Origin: Brachionus manjavacas
Lineage: Eukaryota; Rotifera; Eurotatoria; Ploima; Brachionidae
Length of the DNA stretch: 64,000 nt
Direction: 5' to 3'
Assembly: GCA_019054805.1 (NCBI GenBank)
Contig: JAHQIY010000009.1
Span: 2,728,001 to 2,792,000 of the forward strand
The position numbers were made by a program, and so were the translations under genes. Positions 1,235 through 64,000 of the stretch are shown here, piece after piece. The notes under the pieces are model-generated. The model saw only the letters and a program-made list of their open reading frames with translations, was not told the origin of the DNA and did no database searches. The first letter of the stretch is position 1; each line of letters begins with the position of its first letter.

Positions 1235-1848
1235 ATTTTTTAGGAAATAATATATCTTGTTAAAATTCTACAAAATTAAAAAAAAAATTTAATGTTCTAT
1301 ATTTAAAAATTTGAAAAATTTAAATATTTTAAGAAAAAGCATTATTTTTAAGAAATTTTGGCAATTCTTTGTAAACGTTAATTTTCGTAATATGACAAAA
1401 TTTTATGATAATTCATGTAAATTACCGTAAACTCAAGATTTTTTTCTTTTAGTATTTATGACAGTTTACTTGAATTATGGTAAAATTTTTTTACATCCTT
1501 CTATCAAATCACTACTGTAATAAATTCGATTAAACTAACTTTTGTTTAATTTTAACATTTAAATGTTTTGTGAAGTTAATTACAATATGATAACAGAAAA
1601 AAATTTTCTTAACTACGTTCTGTAAATGCAGCATAGTGAAACATTCATCAAATATCAAGTTCTGCTAAATTTGCAGAGTTTAGCAGAAATAATTGCGAGA
1701 AACGAGCATCGCGACGAGCTAATAACCAGATGTGCACATAGGAAAATCTAGGATACTGAACGATTTTTCAATTCAAGAATCAAACCCTGCATTCTGATTC
1801 GACGAATACTTCAGCGAAACTATTGGCTATCGGTTTTGTTTAGTAATA
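1235..1848. repeat. Left copy of ~613-bp direct repeat flanking the LINE
   Basis: This 614-bp block is repeated at 6340-6951. By eye the copies differ only in the length of two T runs (near 1440 and 1487). The match begins at ATTTTTTAGG and ends at GTTTAGTAATA, immediately before the LINE's poly(T) (its poly(A) on the minus strand). The block is non-coding and includes a small hairpin at about 1659-1687 (TTCTGCTAAA paired with TTTAGCAGAA). The position of both copies exactly at the element's borders is what a target-site duplication would give, although the length is extreme. Confidence 0.85.
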
Positions 1849-2001
1849 TTTTTTTTTTTTTTTTTTTTTTAAAATATAATTTGGGCCGAGGCCCCAGGCA
1901 GTTCAGAACGATGTAAACCTTCTTTTCAGCCTGCATTCTTTAGATAATAATTTAGAATATAATTTTACAATTGACTATAGAGAATATAAAATTGTGAAAA
2001 G

Positions 2002-2038
<37 letters not shown>

Positions 2039-2065
2039 AAGTAAATGATTGTAAATAAATAGTTT

Positions 2066-3070
2066 TTATTGTGTGAGATCGAACTGTTCTATGACAACGT
2101 CGAAGGGAGTCAAGAATCTTTTATTGTGCGTATTGCATGTGGTTTCTGATATGTAGGTTCTGAGTTCGTCGAAGAGTAGGTCATTTTGTTTTTTTCCGGT
2201 TACGAATTTGAGAAATAGCTGTTTTAGTCGGGTGTCAAGTTTAGTCATGTTGAAGTGTTTGTGTATTGATTCGATTGAAGTTTTGAGTGGGAATTTTTTA
2301 ATAATTTTCAGTATTTTGTTTTGTATTTTTTGTATATCGTTGCTAATTTTTTGGGTGCCAGTGTTAGCGATTACTAGGCAATAGTCGAGCAGGGATCGGA
2401 TAAGTGAATTGTAGACAATTTTGCATAGTTTGGTACCGTTTTTGAATTTGAGATTTTTTATCTTTTTAATTAGATTTATTTTTGTTATTTGTTTTTGGGT
2501 GATAGTTGTAAGATGCTGTTTGTAATTAAGTTTTGGGTCTAGTTTGATTCCGAGGAATGTTGGAAACGGTTCAAGAGGAATTTTTTGATTGTCTAAAAAG
2601 AGTTCGGTTGAGTATTTATCGTTGTATGTTTTTCGATATCCGGCAGTTGTGAATGTAGTGTAGTTGGTCTTGGATTTGTTTATCGTGAAGCCTTTGGTGT
2701 TGCAGAAGTTGTTAATGCTGTTGATGGCTGATTGGATTTTTTGAGTGATTTCTTTAAGGTTACGGCCTGAGGCCCAAATTGCTAGGTCGTCTGCGAAGAG
2801 AGCATGGTTTACTGAAAATGGTATGTGTTTGGAGATTTGGCTAAAGTAAATGATAAAAAGAGTTGGAGAAAGACAGCTTCCTTGTGGAACTCCGCATGTT
2901 ATTTTCCTAGTTGACGAGACAGCGCTGTTGACTCTGACTTGAAAATGTCGGTCTTCAAGAAAGCTAGTTACCCATTTTTTTATGTTTGGACTGATTTGAA
3001 GTGAGCTGATTGAGTCGAGTATTCCTGAATGGGGAGTTTTGTCAAATGCTTTCTCTAAGTCGAAAAACAC
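2066..3070 (-). CDS. LINE ORF2, C-terminal part: reverse transcriptase catalytic core
   Basis: Continues ORF2 after a single-base frame change at about 3070-3079. It begins with VFFDLEKAFD (RT motif A, first catalytic Asp), then GVPQGSCLSP (motif B) and HALFADDLAIW (motif C, the catalytic DD pair), then thumb and C-terminal sequence to a stop at 2066. The first codon of the open frame is GTG, not a real start. No RNase H or CCHC motif follows the RT. Apart from the frame break all key residues are present, so this copy is young or the break is a sequencing error. Confidence 0.88.
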   Translation of the reverse strand: MFFDLEKAFDKTPHSGILDSISSLQISPNIKKWVTSFLEDRHFQVRVNSAVSSTRKITCGVPQGSCLSPTLFIIYFSQISKHIPFSVNHALFADDLAIWASGRNLKEITQKIQSAINSINNFCNTKGFTINKSKTNYTTFTTAGYRKTYNDKYSTELFLDNQKIPLEPFPTFLGIKLDPKLNYKQHLTTITQKQITKINLIKKIKNLKFKNGTKLCKIVYNSLIRSLLDYCLVIANTGTQKISNDIQKIQNKILKIIKKFPLKTSIESIHKHFNMTKLDTRLKQLFLKFVTGKKQNDLLFDELRTYISETTCNTHNKRFLTPFDVVIEQFDLTQ

Positions 3071-3078
3071 GGCTAGTG

Positions 3079-4818
3079 TTAGGTTCTTTTATTAAATCCA
3101 TTAATAATGGATTGGTTTAGTCTGAGGATTTGATCTTGAGTACTTTTGCCTGATCTGAAACCTGATTGTGTTTGTGGCAAAACCTTCTCTTGTTCTATCC
3201 ATGTTTTAAGCTTGTTGTTTATTATTTTTTCAAGCCACTTGCCTATACAGCTTAATAATGAAATAGGTCTGTAAGATGAAAAATTTTCGGATGGTTTGCC
3301 TTTCTTGAGGATCATTGTTATTGTTGATAATTTCCAAATTTTTGGAATGTAACCTAATCTTAATGACGAGTTGAATAGATTTAAAAATTTGAACATGTAG
3401 TTGGTAGGCAAGTTTTTGAGGGCTTTGTTATTAATTCCATCAGGGCCTGGTGACGCTTTGTTACGTGATGATTTTAGTGTATCGATTAGCTCTTTGTTCG
3501 TTATTACTTCGCTTGGTGTTACTATTGGTGCTGGAGTTTGGCTGGCTGGTTCGGGACATAATTCGATGTTGAAAATTTGTTCAAGATTTGATGCAAAAGT
3601 TTCGGCGGTACCCAAATCGGTGGATGTTGTTGTAAAGTTGAATTTTTGGTTGACTTCATGATTGTTTTTTTGCGGTTCCAGTTTGTTTAGAAGCTTCCAG
3701 TGCTTCGTATCCGATTGTTTAAAATTGTTTAGTTCTTTGAATTGAGTGAGTGTTTGGTTTTGGTAAAAGTTTTTTAGCTCTGTTTTGCATTTGCGGTCTA
3801 GTAGATTGGTTAATGTTTTATGAATTGGCGAATTTGTTTTTTGGTACAATCGACGCATTTTTCTTTTCTGCTTGATTAGTTTAAGAAGTTCTGGGGGAAT
3901 GTTTGCTGTCTTGAATTTAGATGTAGTGTTAAAGGTGTGAGTCGCTGTTGATAGGGCGCTTTTTATATCTGCTGTTATTTTAAGTGCTTCTTGGTCTAAA
4001 TGCTTTTCTGTGTAGATTTGCGGTTGATTGGATTCGTTGTTTGAAAGAGTGGTATAGAATTTTGTCCAGTTGATCGATTTGTGAGTTTGTATATTTGTTG
4101 GTGATTGAATATTATTCATTATGGTTAAAGTTGGCTGGTGGTCACTTAAGGATTCGTTCAATACAGTATGAGAGGCGAAGTATTTTGTTAATTGTTGGGA
4201 GCAGATGCTTAGGTCAAGGATGTTTTTGCTTCTCCTGTATGTAGGTTGCTCACAATTTAAGATTGAGAGATGGTTTCTTCGTATAATTTCATCGAGAATC
4301 TTTCCTTTTTTGTTTCCAATTTTACATTTCCAGGATTTGTGTCTTGCATTTAAGTCACCGAGGATAATAAAGTTTGGATAGTCTTTGATTATAGTGTTGA
4401 GTAGACTTTCATCGAGTTGGTTTGATGGGCTTACGTATATACTAAAGATGGCAAGGTATATATTGTTGGTAAGTTTTGTAACTATGCCCGTTACTTCATT
4501 GGTTGAGCTTGAAATGTTTAGTGGTTTAAATGATAAATTACTTCTGATGCAGAGGGCTGTTCCTCCTCCTTTTTGGATTTGGCGATCGTTTCTAAGAATT
4601 GAGTAATTTTCTAATTCCAAATTGATTCCTGGTTTTAGAAATGTTTCATTTAAACTAATTATATCTGGTAGGTGTTTATTTGTCATGTTCAGTAGTTGTA
4701 AGGTTTTGTGGGATTTGACGATTGATTGGCAGTTAAGGTGTAGCATTTTCAGCGGCTTATTGTTGTTCATTTTCATATTCAATGTATGGATCGGACATGT
4801 TTGCATCGAAGCGGTCAT
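3079..4818 (-). CDS. LINE ORF2, N-terminal part: endonuclease and start of RT
   Basis: First 579 residues of ORF2. The exonuclease-endonuclease-phosphatase fold is shown by LHLNCQS near residue 27, LNETF near 56, LGDLNARH near 153 and LSDHQPT near 224, the metal- and phosphate-binding motifs of APE-type LINE endonucleases. RT motifs follow: SYRPISLLS and QSGFRSGKSTQDQ near the end. It overlaps the end of ORF1 by about 60 nt, so translation probably uses re-initiation or a later ATG such as the one at MKMNNN. The frame ends at about 3079 just before the first catalytic Asp of RT, and the protein resumes in another frame at 3070 and below. Role: nicking the target DNA and priming reverse transcription. 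Confidence 0.88.
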   Translation of the reverse strand: MTASMQTCPIHTLNMKMNNNKPLKMLHLNCQSIVKSHKTLQLLNMTNKHLPDIISLNETFLKPGINLELENYSILRNDRQIQKGGGTALCIRSNLSFKPLNISSSTNEVTGIVTKLTNNIYLAIFSIYVSPSNQLDESLLNTIIKDYPNFIILGDLNARHKSWKCKIGNKKGKILDEIIRRNHLSILNCEQPTYRRSKNILDLSICSQQLTKYFASHTVLNESLSDHQPTLTIMNNIQSPTNIQTHKSINWTKFYTTLSNNESNQPQIYTEKHLDQEALKITADIKSALSTATHTFNTTSKFKTANIPPELLKLIKQKRKMRRLYQKTNSPIHKTLTNLLDRKCKTELKNFYQNQTLTQFKELNNFKQSDTKHWKLLNKLEPQKNNHEVNQKFNFTTTSTDLGTAETFASNLEQIFNIELCPEPASQTPAPIVTPSEVITNKELIDTLKSSRNKASPGPDGINNKALKNLPTNYMFKFLNLFNSSLRLGYIPKIWKLSTITMILKKGKPSENFSSYRPISLLSCIGKWLEKIINNKLKTWIEQEKVLPQTQSGFRSGKSTQDQILRLNQSIINGFNKRT

Positions 4819-6331
4819 TTTTTAGACTTGCGAAAAGTATTGGTTCGAGTTCACGACTATATCGTTGCCCAAGATTTGTTGAAATAATATCGAGTAGAGG
4901 TTTTGGGTCTTCGTGGACTGTTGAGGTGATTTTGTTCAAGTTTCTAATTAGGTCTATTATAAATTTAATGATTGAGAGTGTTGAAGGGTTTTGTTGTTGC
5001 TGGCTATTGAAACTGGAATAATTTCTTTGAAAATTATTGCTATTTTGTGTTTTTTTTTTGTAGTCTTTTTTTCTTGTTCGGCTGATTTTGCGATAACTGC
5101 TTCTTGGAGAATTTTGCATGACTTAGAACAGGCTGCGTGATTTTCACCACAGTTTACGCATTTAAATTTGGCTTGGTCTTTTACATGACATGATTTGAAG
5201 TGGTGTTTACCAGAGCATCTGAGACAGGTAGGGTTTTTTTCTATACATTTTTCTTTAGTGTGTCCAAACTTCTGGCAGTTGAAACATTGGTCTGGAGTAG
5301 TCCCGAATTTCCATGGTGTCACTCGAATACGCGAATATCCAATTTTGATGTGTCCGGTTTCAATAATTTGGTTAAATGATTTCCTATCGTTAATTACTGC
5401 TTTTACTAGTGGGAGTTTTTGTTGTGTGGACTTTTTCATCATGCGCAACATGTCGTCTATATTGTATTTTTCTTTTACGTATTCTTTTGCTCTTTGTAAA
5501 GTGACGTCAAAATCAAGATCTACGTTGTGCAGTGCTATATAATGTTTAGATTGATTTGTAATTTGTTGTAGACCGTGGTGGAATGCTTTAGGTGGCCAGT
5601 TTGTTAGTGCTTCGATGTGTTTAGGGTTGTCTGTTTTTATGACCAACTCATTTTTCATGTTGATAAAAGCGGCTGTGACGTCAATTTTCGGTTTTAGTTG
5701 TTTTATTTCGTCTTCTAGTGTAAAATAATTCTTAAAATTACTTGGAAATTCTTTGTTGCTTTTGAATTTAAGAGTGAAAATTTGTTTTTGTTCTTGATGA
5801 CTAAAGGATTTTTGAAGATGGTTTTCGGTAGTTGGTTGGTTTATCTGGTAGTTGTTATTGTTGAACAATGATGTAAAAGTTGGGTAGTTGTTGTAATTTG
5901 ATGATGTGTTATCAATAGTATTTTGGTGCGTGTTGTTTGGAATTTGAGGATGTGGGTTTCTAATAGTTTGATTGGTTGGTTGTGGTTGTCCATTTGGATC
6001 GTAATATAAGTTCGGGGTTTGGTACTGTTGTGTTAAAAGATAGGGGAAGTTCATGTTGTAATTTTGAGAATAAGTGATATCGGAAATTTTTTGGGTTTGC
6101 TTGGATTTGTGGTGTGTTCCTTTGAGGGATTGAGTATGGAGAGGGGCGGTTGCTTTGAAGGTTATTTGAACGAGTCGGGTTTGATTGGCTGTTGTAGTAT
6201 CTTACACTCTGATCTTGAGTCGAATCCAGTGTATCCATACTTTCTTTGACCAACTTAATGGTGTCAGAAAGATTTGTGTTGATAACTTTATTATGCAATC
6301 CGGAGATTTTGTAATATTTCAATTTTTTCAA
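4757..6331 (-). CDS. LINE ORF1, gag-like protein with three zinc knuckles
   Basis: Read in three overlapping frames: 6331 to about 6080, 6054-4957 and 5119-4757. The N-terminal part is Asn/Gln/Pro-rich and probably disordered. The middle frame carries three Cys knuckles in a row: CFNCQKFGHTKEKC, CLRCSGKHHFKSC and CVNCGENHAACSKSC. The C-terminal part is Lys-rich, then a short helical segment ending in an acidic tail. The frame changes coincide with homopolymers (a T6 run near 6090 and a T10 run near 5050 on the plus strand). The likely role is RNA binding and RNP assembly. No ATG starts the first frame, consistent with 5' truncation. Confidence 0.8.
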
Positions 6332-6339
6332 ATTTTTTC

Positions 6340-6951
6340 ATTTTTTAGGAAATAATATATCTTGTTAAAATTCTACAAAATTAAAAAAAAAATTTAATGT
6401 TCTATATTTAAAAATTTGAAAAATTTAAATATTTTAAGAAAAAGCATTATTTTTAAGAAATTTTGGCAATTCTTTGTAAACGTTAATTTTCGTAATATGA
6501 CAAAATTTTATGATAATTCATGTAAATTACCGTAAACTCAAGATTTTTTCTTTTAGTATTTATGACAGTTTACTTGAATTATGGTAAAATTTTTTACATC
6601 CTTCTATCAAATCACTACTGTAATAAATTCGATTAAACTAACTTTTGTTTAATTTTAACATTTAAATGTTTTGTGAAGTTAATTACAATATGATAACAGA
6701 AAAAAATTTTCTTAACTACGTTCTGTAAATGCAGCATAGTGAAACATTCATCAAATATCAAGTTCTGCTAAATTTGCAGAGTTTAGCAGAAATAATTGCG
6801 AGAAACGAGCATCGCGACGAGCTAATAACCAGATGTGCACATAGGAAAATCTAGGATACTGAACGATTTTTCAATTCAAGAATCAAACCCTGCATTCTGA
6901 TTCGACGAATACTTCAGCGAAACTATTGGCTATCGGTTTTGTTTAGTAATA
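6340..6951. repeat. Right copy of ~613-bp direct repeat flanking the LINE
   Basis: 612 bp, nearly identical to 1235-1848 apart from homopolymer lengths. It starts directly after the 5' end of the LINE and runs into unique sequence (AAATCTAACAC) at 6952. See the left copy for interpretation. Confidence 0.85.
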
Positions 6952-7012
6952 AAATCTAACACTTTAATATTAAAATAAAAAGAAATAAAAGAAAACAGCA
7001 GACAATTATTCT

Positions 7013-7070
7013 GAAGGAGCCCTAGCTCGGTACAAAAAACAAATAAATAATAAAATAAAAATAAATAAAT
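7013..7070 (+). repeat. Stem-loop plus TAAATAA tail (3' end of a LINE or SINE)
   Basis: GGAGCCCTAGCTCGGTAC, a short hairpin, is followed by an A run and an (A)ATAAATAAT-type tail. The same design occurs at 10651, 21480 and 31011. This is what remains of a heavily 5'-truncated retrotransposon copy. Confidence 0.5.
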
Positions 7071-7274
7071 TATTGTTCTTACTATTACGTTACAAGACTA
7101 TATTTAGAGAACGAAAAAGTCGAAAAGTAAACAATGAAAAGTTACTGAACTAAATATGCCAATTATATATTTTATAGCCCTCAATAGCCATGGAGCTGCT
7201 AAAAATTGATCAATTTGCAGGTCTTTCTAATTCAATTTATTGCTCAATTAATTCAAAAATATACTTAACTTCAA

Positions 7275-50600: not shown

Positions 50601-53600
50601 AGAGCCATAAACATAGTTTGTTTATGTAAAACAAACCATGTCAATTTTGTGACCAATTCATAAATTTTAGGCCTAATAAACTCACTAGTTAATTACAAAA
50701 TAAAAAAGCCGAAATTCACCGAACATGATTGTTTTAAAACTTGAAGATACACTTTAGGCCTTAAAAGTCAAAAAAACTCTTTATAAGATTAAATTAATAA
50801 AATGCTTTGTTTTAGTTATTTCAATCTGTTATTATATAATTTTATGTTTTTATTAAATTAATTTTATTCAAACAACTTAGAAATCTTTGGAAAAAATAAG
50901 TACAATATAGAAAAAAAATGTAAGAGTTCAAATTTTTTCAACCACTATGACCTCACAGGTCTTTAAAACTTCTTTCTATTTAAAATAAGAACAAATGGTT
51001 TGTTATGGCTCCTTTTCTAATATATTATTATACAATTATTATTTTTAAAGTAAAAAAATCAATTAAATCACAAGTTTAAAGATAGTGAAAAACATTACAA
51101 AATTTTGGACGTCTGTTACACTTAAAGTCTGGCCACTACTTCAAGCGTAGTTAAAGATAACGAATTTGTTTTAAAATATTTTAATACTTTATTATTTTAA
51201 TAGATATTTTAATTGAATAAAATAAGAGCGAATATACAGCTAAAAATAAAGAATAAGTCACTACAAATTAAAGTGCAGTTCTTAAAGCTAGATTAAAAGT
51301 GAATATAAATTAACCTCACCACAGATTTAGATAAACACTAATTCAGTAATTGAATCAATTTTTCATTAAAAAAAAAACATTCAGGTCTTATAATGGTATT
51401 AAAAAAATTTTATGGGATCTATTTTTTTTTTAAACTTAAAAAACTCAACAAAAATCTCATAATTCTTTGCCAGTAGAGGTCTTAGGGGTCCTGAAGCATT
51501 TAGAGTAAGCTTAAGCCAGAACGGGATTTTTTTATTTTAAATTTCAAATTATGAACTTATTTTGTTAAAAAATTATTTTAAAGATTTAAACAAAAAATCA
51601 TGTAAAAATTTGATTTTAAGATTTTTTATTCTAATTGCCTAAATATCTTTGAAAATTTATTTTTTCTTAAAATCAACCAAAAAAAATTCTCTGGTATTAT
51701 ATGAACAAAAAAAAGACTGTGGAAGTTTTGCATTTTCTGAACTTAATAAAAAATCAATTGAAAAAAATTAATAAATTTTATTAAAAAGCGGACTCTGTCG
51801 AATAAGGAACATTCGAGCTATGAAAAAGAGATAAAAAAATTGACAGACCAGCTTAACAAGATTGATCAGAGTGTAGGTTTTTAATTAAAAGCCAAGTTCT
51901 ACTCTATTTTTTCTTTTAGCTTCAAGCGACCAAAGACGACTTGAATGACTACAAGTCCGAAAATGCGAATCTCTCCTCCAAAATTCAGACTCTAGGCGAA
52001 GAAAAAAATCAGCTTTATGACAAACTACAACAGGTTGAAATTCAGCTTGTACAATCAAATGAAAAGCACCGAGTTTGTCAGCTAGAGGTGACCCAACGGG
52101 ACCAGAACATACTCAAAATTAAGAATGAGTTGAGTTTAATGAATGAAAAGTACGCCAGCAGCCTTGATGAAATCCAAATTCAGCAAGAAGAAATCGACCG
52201 ACTCAATCAAAGGGTCAAGAAACAGTCCTCTGATTTAAAGGAAATGCAGGATTTGAATGACAAATTGGACGAGAAAAATTGCCAAAAAGACAAACTACTA
52301 AAGCAGTATGAGTACGAAATTGAACAAGTCAAGCAGGAAGTCTCAAAAAAAGAGAAACAAAATGAGATCATAAAATCGGACTGGACAGTGAATATTAGAA
52401 ATCACGAGGAAGAGATAAAAGGATACAAACAAAGCTATCAGATTTTGAGCGAGGAACTGAACCGCACCAAATCGGACTTGGCCGATTTTATGAACAAAAT
52501 AACCAATTTAAAGCAAAAAATAAATGATTTGTCCGAGGGGCTGGAGTGCAAGAATACGGAAAATTCAAGTTTAAGGGGCGAAATTGAGCGCTATGAGCAG
52601 GTAACTCGGGACCAGGAGTCCAAAATTTGTCAGCTATCGTCCGATTTGTGTGTGACAAGATCTTATTATGACAATTCTCAAAGTGAAATGGACAAATTGG
52701 GCATCAAATTCCAGGACTTGCAAGACAGGTATCAGACTGTGTTGAATGAGTTGGACAGGGCGGAAAAAGACTGCAAGGCTCAAAATGAACAAGTAGTTGA
52801 GCTCAAGTTTAAGAATGGAGAAAAAGATCAAAGTTTGGAGGCAATCAAAAATGAAAACTTGAGGATAAATCAATTGTTGAATGAAAAATGCTCGGATTTT
52901 AAAAAAATTTGTCAAGATAACGAGTGTTTAAATGAAGAAGTAGAAAAAATAAATCAGGAATATAATAAGTTAATTCAATTGATGGAACAAAGTGAAAATG
53001 CCCTACAAGTAAATCAGACAAAGTTAAATGAAAAAATTGAAGATGTAAGTGCTTTTGTGGATGTACCAAATAATAAAGTTCTTCCATTTTTCAGATTTAA
53101 GGCTTCCTAATCAATTTACCTCAATATCTAAAACAATAAATCTAATTTTTAAGGCTAATACTCAATTAACAATATTAATTTAAGCTAGTTGTTTACACTT
53201 ATGACGTTTTGCTTTTATACATAAGGAAAAACGAATTTACTTAAGACCTTTTTACAATAAAGTATAACTATCTTTTCTGTTGTATAAATATTTATTCATA
53301 AGTATAAAATAATACATAAATGTACATAATGTACATAAAAAGTGTTAATGTCACAAATATATTTTAAAGTTATCTAATCATAACTCAATGGATTCGACTT
53401 TGCCTTCTTTTTGCCAGGTTTAGCTCGAGTAGCTTCTTGAACAAAACCTTTTAGAGTCAGTTTTAATTTTGCTGACAACGCTAAAGCGTGTTTACAGACA
53501 AAATGTCTATAAAAATCTTTACAAGTACAGCTGCAATAATGATGTTTGTGGTATATTAAGTTAATGTCATGCATAAGATAATACTTATTATCATACAAGT

Positions 53601-63430: not shown

Positions 63431-63648
63431 ATTTAAAAGCTCCAAAAAAAAGAAAATAAAGATAAAAATTGAATTATTAAATGAGAATTAAAAAAAAACA
63501 CAAAAATTTAAAAAAGCGTCTTTAGATAATTAAATAAAATACATTTTAGTCTATTAGTAGAAAATTTAGAAAGAAAATAAAGACTTAGAAAATGGATCTC
63601 ATTTTTTAGCAGTTAAATAATTTAAATTAAAAAAAATTTAAATTTTGG

Positions 63649-64000
63649 GATCTTATTTTTATATAAGACTCTATAAAGCTCAACAAAAATCTCATGATTC
63701 TTTGCCAGTAGAGGTCTAAGGGCTCCTGAAGCATTTAGAGTAAGCTTAAGCCAGAACGGGATTTTTTTTATTTTAAATTTCAAATTATGAACTTATTTTG
63801 TTAAAAAATTATTTTAAAGATTTAAACAAAAAGTCATGTAAAAATTTGATTTTAAGATTTTTTATTCTAATTGCCTAAATATCTTTGAAAATTTAATTTT
63901 TCTTAAAATCAACCAAAAAAAATTCTCTGGTATTATCTGAACTTGACAGGAGCAACTAAAAAAAAGACTGCAGAATTTTTTCATTTTCTAAACTTATTTA
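63649..64000. repeat. ~300-bp dispersed repeat, copy 2 (cut by window end)
   Basis: Same-orientation copy of 51414-51740. Similarity continues to the last base, so the repeat probably extends beyond the window. Confidence 0.75.

Follow-up and report, generated by a model that had tools for sequence, protein, structure and literature searches.

The window analysed here is a stretch of 64,000 nucleotides of Brachionus manjavacas DNA (contig JAHQIY010000009.1, positions 2,728,001 to 2,792,000, contig C9 below), and unprefixed coordinates are positions within it. Near its start lies a LINE on the minus strand, with its 5' end at 6339 and its 3' end at 1849, between two copies of a long direct repeat. 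The features of the locus are as follows, in the direction of the element.

6340..6951, minus strand: 5'-side copy of the target duplication, 612 bp, adjoining the 5' end of the LINE.
1849..6339, minus strand: LINE, 4,491 bp including the tail, shortened at the 5' end by about 50 bp relative to the family; near-identical copies on contigs C7, C4 and C13.
4957..6331, minus strand: ORF1 region, in two overlapping frames (4957-6054 and 5960-6331), with CCHC-type zinc knuckles recognised by eye.
3079..4818, minus strand: ORF2, part 1, with a predicted AP-endonuclease-like domain and the start of the reverse transcriptase.
2066..3070, minus strand: ORF2, part 2, the remaining reverse transcriptase in a different frame (PF00078, 1.9e-23).
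1871..2065, minus strand: 3' UTR, with an internal T-run.
1849..1870, minus strand: poly(A) tail of 22 A (the T-run 1849-1870 of the forward strand), directly against one copy of the duplication.
1235..1848, minus strand: 3'-side copy of the target duplication, 614 bp, immediately after the poly(A) tail.

The first part of ORF2 matches the Pfam families PF14529 (1.2e-20), PF03372 (6.9e-9) and PF00078 (9.6e-9), and human LINE-1 ORF2p, at 1.8e-8, is one of the five PDB sequences that it matched. The Pfam search found no family match for the ORF1 region. Copies of the family have a common 3' end, and their 5' starts range from full length to element position 4366. By its predicted AP-like endonuclease and reverse transcriptase, its A-rich 3' end and the variable 5' truncation, the element is an APE-type LINE; within that group it may be "jockey-like". 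Two other copies, L043 and L045, extend further at the 5' end by the missing 50 bp or so, so the element in the window is slightly 5'-truncated.

The two copies of the flanking repeat were compared by pairwise alignment. Over 612 aligned bases they have 0 mismatches, and their sole differences are two 1-base gaps, both in T-runs. This agrees with the preliminary description, which had reported copies of about 613 bp abutting the poly(A) and the 5' end of the LINE and differing only in homopolymers. In the 114-Mb assembly (61 contigs, searched with simple repeats skipped) the 612-bp repeat has two full-length matches, both at this site, and the next-best match is 130 bases at 87%, among the best 40 of 509 candidates. 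About 6 extra bases were seen by eye at the 5' junction. As read from the assembled sequence, the 612-bp duplication that bounds the LINE is confirmed as a real feature.

Other direct repeats in the window are shorter. Among those longer than 60 bp, with a low-complexity filter on, the next is 305 bp at 94% identity and the one after it 76 bp at 91%. The copies of the 305-bp repeat, at 51405-51706 and 63640-63942, lie among coiled-coil-like reading frames. At 7010-7075, and also near the family copies L057 and L061, a recurring motif was seen by eye, CTGAAGGAGC..CTAGCTCGGTACA with tails of the AAATAAATA type behind it; it resembles the 3' terminus of a further retroelement family.

The last 160 bp of the 3' UTR match 25 places in the genome at 87% identity or more, the one in the window included. 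These 25, with one internal fragment (L047), make up the 26 family places surveyed, namely the window copy and L043-L067; three weak 3'-end matches at 80-81% (C12:1604422, C6:4401470 and C5:6537012) were left outside the survey. The near-full-length relatives are L043 (C7), L044 (C4) and L045 (C13). Together with the window copy they differ pairwise by 0-2 substitutions per 4.4-4.5 kb, and the indels among them sit in homopolymer runs, one being a G inside a T-run. Since four near-full copies differ by so little, the family is young; judged by this near-identity, it has been active recently and the insertion in the window is recent. L046 (C29) is a truncated 3.2-kb copy with 13 substitutions against each of the near-full copies. 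Two near-identical fragments, L048 and L049 (C2:337431-346752), lie about 8.6 kb apart in an apparent tandem segmental duplication.

Two other copies in the survey have long flanking duplications. That of L045 is about 1,631 bp long, with 0 substitutions and homopolymer indels only between its copies; three mismatches in the BLAST alignment of the flanks fall beyond the junction. The whole segment occurs twice in the genome, its first 800 bp or so also match a dispersed repeat, and nothing else matched the other 830 bp or so, all among the best 40 of 288 candidates. The dispersed repeat (L045:850-1650, the first half of the duplication) lies in dozens of places in the genome and is DNA transposon-like by eye. 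L046 has a flanking duplication of 80 bp.

Most of the other readable copies have short repeats. L043 and L044, both near full length, have exact flanking repeats of 12 bp and 13 bp respectively. In ten short 3' fragments (L050-L054, L056-L059 and L065) the repeats are 8-13 bp long, and some of their bases are common to the A tail or the end of the element. Junction repeats were scored at 25 of the 26 places, omitting L049, the tandem twin of L048. Repeats of at least 10 bp were found in 13/25 true flank pairs versus 0/600 mismatched pairs, and repeats of at least 8 bp in 14/25 versus 7/600. The copies with short duplications exhibit the ordinary course of insertion. At L047, L055, L060-L064 and L066 the junctions show no repeat that reaches 8 bp. 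The places other than the three with long duplications have no near-identical long duplication at their junctions in the 1.1-5.2 kb of flank compared per side. The flanks of L061 match over 150 bp at 78%, in a stretch that ends 3 bases from the 5' junction and starts 197 bases past the tail, which is read as another repeat family, without an origin in target duplication. By eye, the two flanks of L066, a short copy, resemble inverted repeats and not direct ones. The reading also covered two other LINE elements: L068 has a 12-bp duplication, and no long flanking repeat was seen at L069, whose ends are approximate. As read from these junctions, target duplications in the family are variable and mostly short, as in APE-type LINEs.

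Given L045 and L046, a one-off event at the window locus was rejected. Three unrelated loci have duplications of three lengths, and LINE ends bound each of them, which speaks against LTRs, against a tandem duplication present beforehand and against an isolated error of assembly. On the assembled sequence, long duplication seems to be something that the insertion process produces repeatedly, and not a single accident. The preliminary description had proposed a very long target duplication made by the insertion of the LINE, and the 80, 612 and roughly 1,631 bp found at three loci support it. A survey of the family, which it had called for, found that the copies are not all short in their duplications: three have 80 to about 1,631 bp, and most readable ones 8-13 bp. 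The rival histories that it named, a mis-join of two haplotypes and an earlier tandem duplication, now require independent coincidences at loci that are unrelated.

What seems to have happened in the window, very probably, is target-primed reverse transcription by a recently active APE-type LINE, with the second 3' end about 612 bp away. The endonuclease of the LINE would nick one strand, and the free 3' end would prime cDNA synthesis starting from the poly(A) end. The second strand would then not be broken about 10 bp away, unlike in most readable copies; instead a second 3' end, about 612 bp downstream, would take up the far end of the cDNA. Fill-in on both sides would duplicate the whole stretch between the breaks, and across the loci the distance from the first nick to the second break would be 80 to about 1,600 bp. 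For target-primed reverse transcription, the length of the duplication is described as the distance between the two breaks (PMC2666801).

The nick sites were read by eye in the copies with a readable start of the duplication, omitting L067, where the query word had matched the wrong place. The base just before the duplication is A in 12 of these 15 copies (A makes up 37% of the bases in the window), and in 11 of the 12 that A is preceded by C or T. This fits an endonuclease preference. The first nick of L045, also read by eye, fits the Y|A step, so the first nick there was probably normal. In the window copy, where the first nick is GATTT|TATTAC, the Y|A step that most other copies have is missing, unless the junction carries a surplus T.

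At the 3' junctions poly(A) is followed by target in the normal way. The distant end, we infer, would have arisen without another cut by the endonuclease of the LINE, at an unrelated nick, at a replication gap or at a sister chromatid that had broken. Another endonuclease cut would leave just the sequence that a nick at a distance or the end of a sister chromatid leaves, so these origins are inseparable by sequence. An unrelated nick reached by strand displacement is among the possibilities discussed for cells deficient in NER (PMC5223499), and how LINEs break the second strand is described as poorly understood (PMC6895275).

Other histories would leave a LINE between two identical segments. 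Two LINE copies could have inserted about 612 bp apart on two haplotypes, with a switch inside the LINE, by assembly or by real crossing-over, giving the order X-LINE-X. Such a switch predicts exact LINE ends on both sides, as observed, and the assembly has homopolymer noise and is hence imperfect. The same coincidence is nevertheless required at C9 (612 bp) and at C13 (about 1,631 bp), in a family with four near-full-length copies, and a rough estimate puts it below 1e-3 per such pair without an insertion hotspot, so this history is improbable. A tandem duplication could also have come first, with the LINE then landing on its junction. Tandem segmental duplications do occur in this genome, as the L048 and L049 fragments in their apparent tandem repeat indicate, but at all three loci the LINE would have to land no more than a few bases from the junction, and there are 0 substitutions between the copies and no leftover repeat sequence between LINE and duplication. 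This order of events appears very unlikely. Equally slight is the chance that the assembly mis-joined an empty and an insertion-bearing haplotype. The copies do differ in homopolymers only, as consensus noise would give, but the single false junction of a mis-join would be expected to fall anywhere, and not precisely on the poly(A) end or the 5' end, and the pattern is seen again at C13 and C29 with other lengths. That the repeats are the LTRs of a retrotransposon is barely credible and was rejected: there is a reverse-transcriptase gene between two long identical direct repeats, but the repeat belongs to the site (two full-length matches among the best 40 of 509 candidates, neither at another element copy), the predicted proteins are an AP-endonuclease and a reverse transcriptase and come with a poly(A) tail, and the flanks differ between copies, with no terminal repeats common to all.

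The lengths of duplication and insert were compared, omitting L048 (10 bp), which lies in a tandem segmental duplication, and L067 (11 bp), whose repeat overlaps the end of the element. Among the 5 inserts of 3 kb or more, 3 have duplications of at least 80 bp, versus 0 of the 10 short inserts whose repeat is clear (Fisher p = 0.022, with length cut-offs picked after inspection of the data, short inserts that are mostly older, at 87-93% identity, and a possible survivor bias, as long duplications may remove themselves by recombination). Among the youngest copies, at 97% or more (five long ones, and L050, L056 and L059 as the short ones), the counts are 3/5 versus 0/3, which is non-significant (p about 0.18, calculated by hand). 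The link between long insert and long duplication is suggestive only. As a weak parallel, duplications of 9 bp or less in human L1 are reported to be commoner in truncated than in full-length copies (PMC2912911).

A more general reading is offered tentatively, as possible and somewhat doubtful: in the germline, long inserts of an active LINE family may often end at a distant host break, making duplications of 80 bp to a kilobase or more a regular outcome, and more so with longer cDNA. If this is true, every such insertion duplicates the sequence it lands in, and recombination between the copies could later remove the insertion cleanly. The family is also a probable example of a LINE that makes small duplications on the scale of genes. 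Being natural and young, and with target duplications that measure about 12, 80, 612 and 1,631 bp, it offers a germline case in which duplication length can be related to insert length, site and repair genes.

A long LINE target duplication is already known as an outcome. Less expected are long duplications in natural germline copies, at three of five inserts of 3 kb or more. Among the matches listed in open-licence literature, no title or opening abstract was found that describes a natural LINE with kilobase duplications; in the literature found, duplications of kilobase size are those of engineered insertions in cell culture or of tumours (PMC2666801, PMC5223499, PMC7058536). One such case is ZfL2-2, a zebrafish LINE, for which 1 of 25 insertions in wild-type chicken DT40 cells is reported with a 1,228-bp duplication (PMC2666801). 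The rotifer family resembles it in that a LINE insertion yields a kilobase-scale duplication. It is unlike it in frequency, the event being rare in DT40 cells and duplications of at least 80 bp being found here at three of the five long inserts.

Human cells deficient in NER offer another comparison. L1 target duplications there are reported to range from 2 bp to several kb, with cases of 545-769 bp and 1.5-1.7 kb among them, and those longer than 100 bp make up 4/7 events in XPA-, 21/23 in XPC- and 22/28 in XPD-deficient cells, against 3/9 in complemented cells and at most 10% in HeLa (PMC5223499). The same source states that copies with long duplications may be lost through recombination. 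The rotifer family resembles the events it describes, LINE insertions of which many have poly(A), in its long target duplications; unlike those events, of an engineered L1 in cultured mutant cells, its copies are natural germline ones. Duplications of more than 100 bp with LINE ends at both junctions are present in the window and at L045. In the rotifer genome the XPA_C, Rad10 (ERCC1-type) and BHD_3 domains were each found once over the cut-off, and for each of them 0 of 14 control genomes were positive. BHD_3 we take to be XPC. Because the predicted domains of all three are present, simple absence of XPA, ERCC1 and XPC-type genes is unsupported as a form of host NER loss behind the duplications.

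In cancers, tandem duplication mediated by L1 is described with one L1 at the junction of the duplicated segment, and a sister-chromatid model is proposed for it (PMC7058536). The window locus is similar in that a LINE insertion sits at the junction of a duplicated segment, and unlike it in that the cancer duplication is somatic and spans 22.6 Mb. Within rotifers, the R9 element of bdelloids is cited with a 126-bp duplication (in PMC6895275 and PMC2861651) and is, by the title of its paper, rDNA-specific. An R9-like, site-specific element with a fixed target and a fixed duplication was considered and rejected, as sites and lengths differ among the copies. The family described here is like R9 in having an unusually long LINE duplication, and unlike it in its insertion sites, which are unrelated, and in its variable duplication length (80, 612 and about 1,631 bp).
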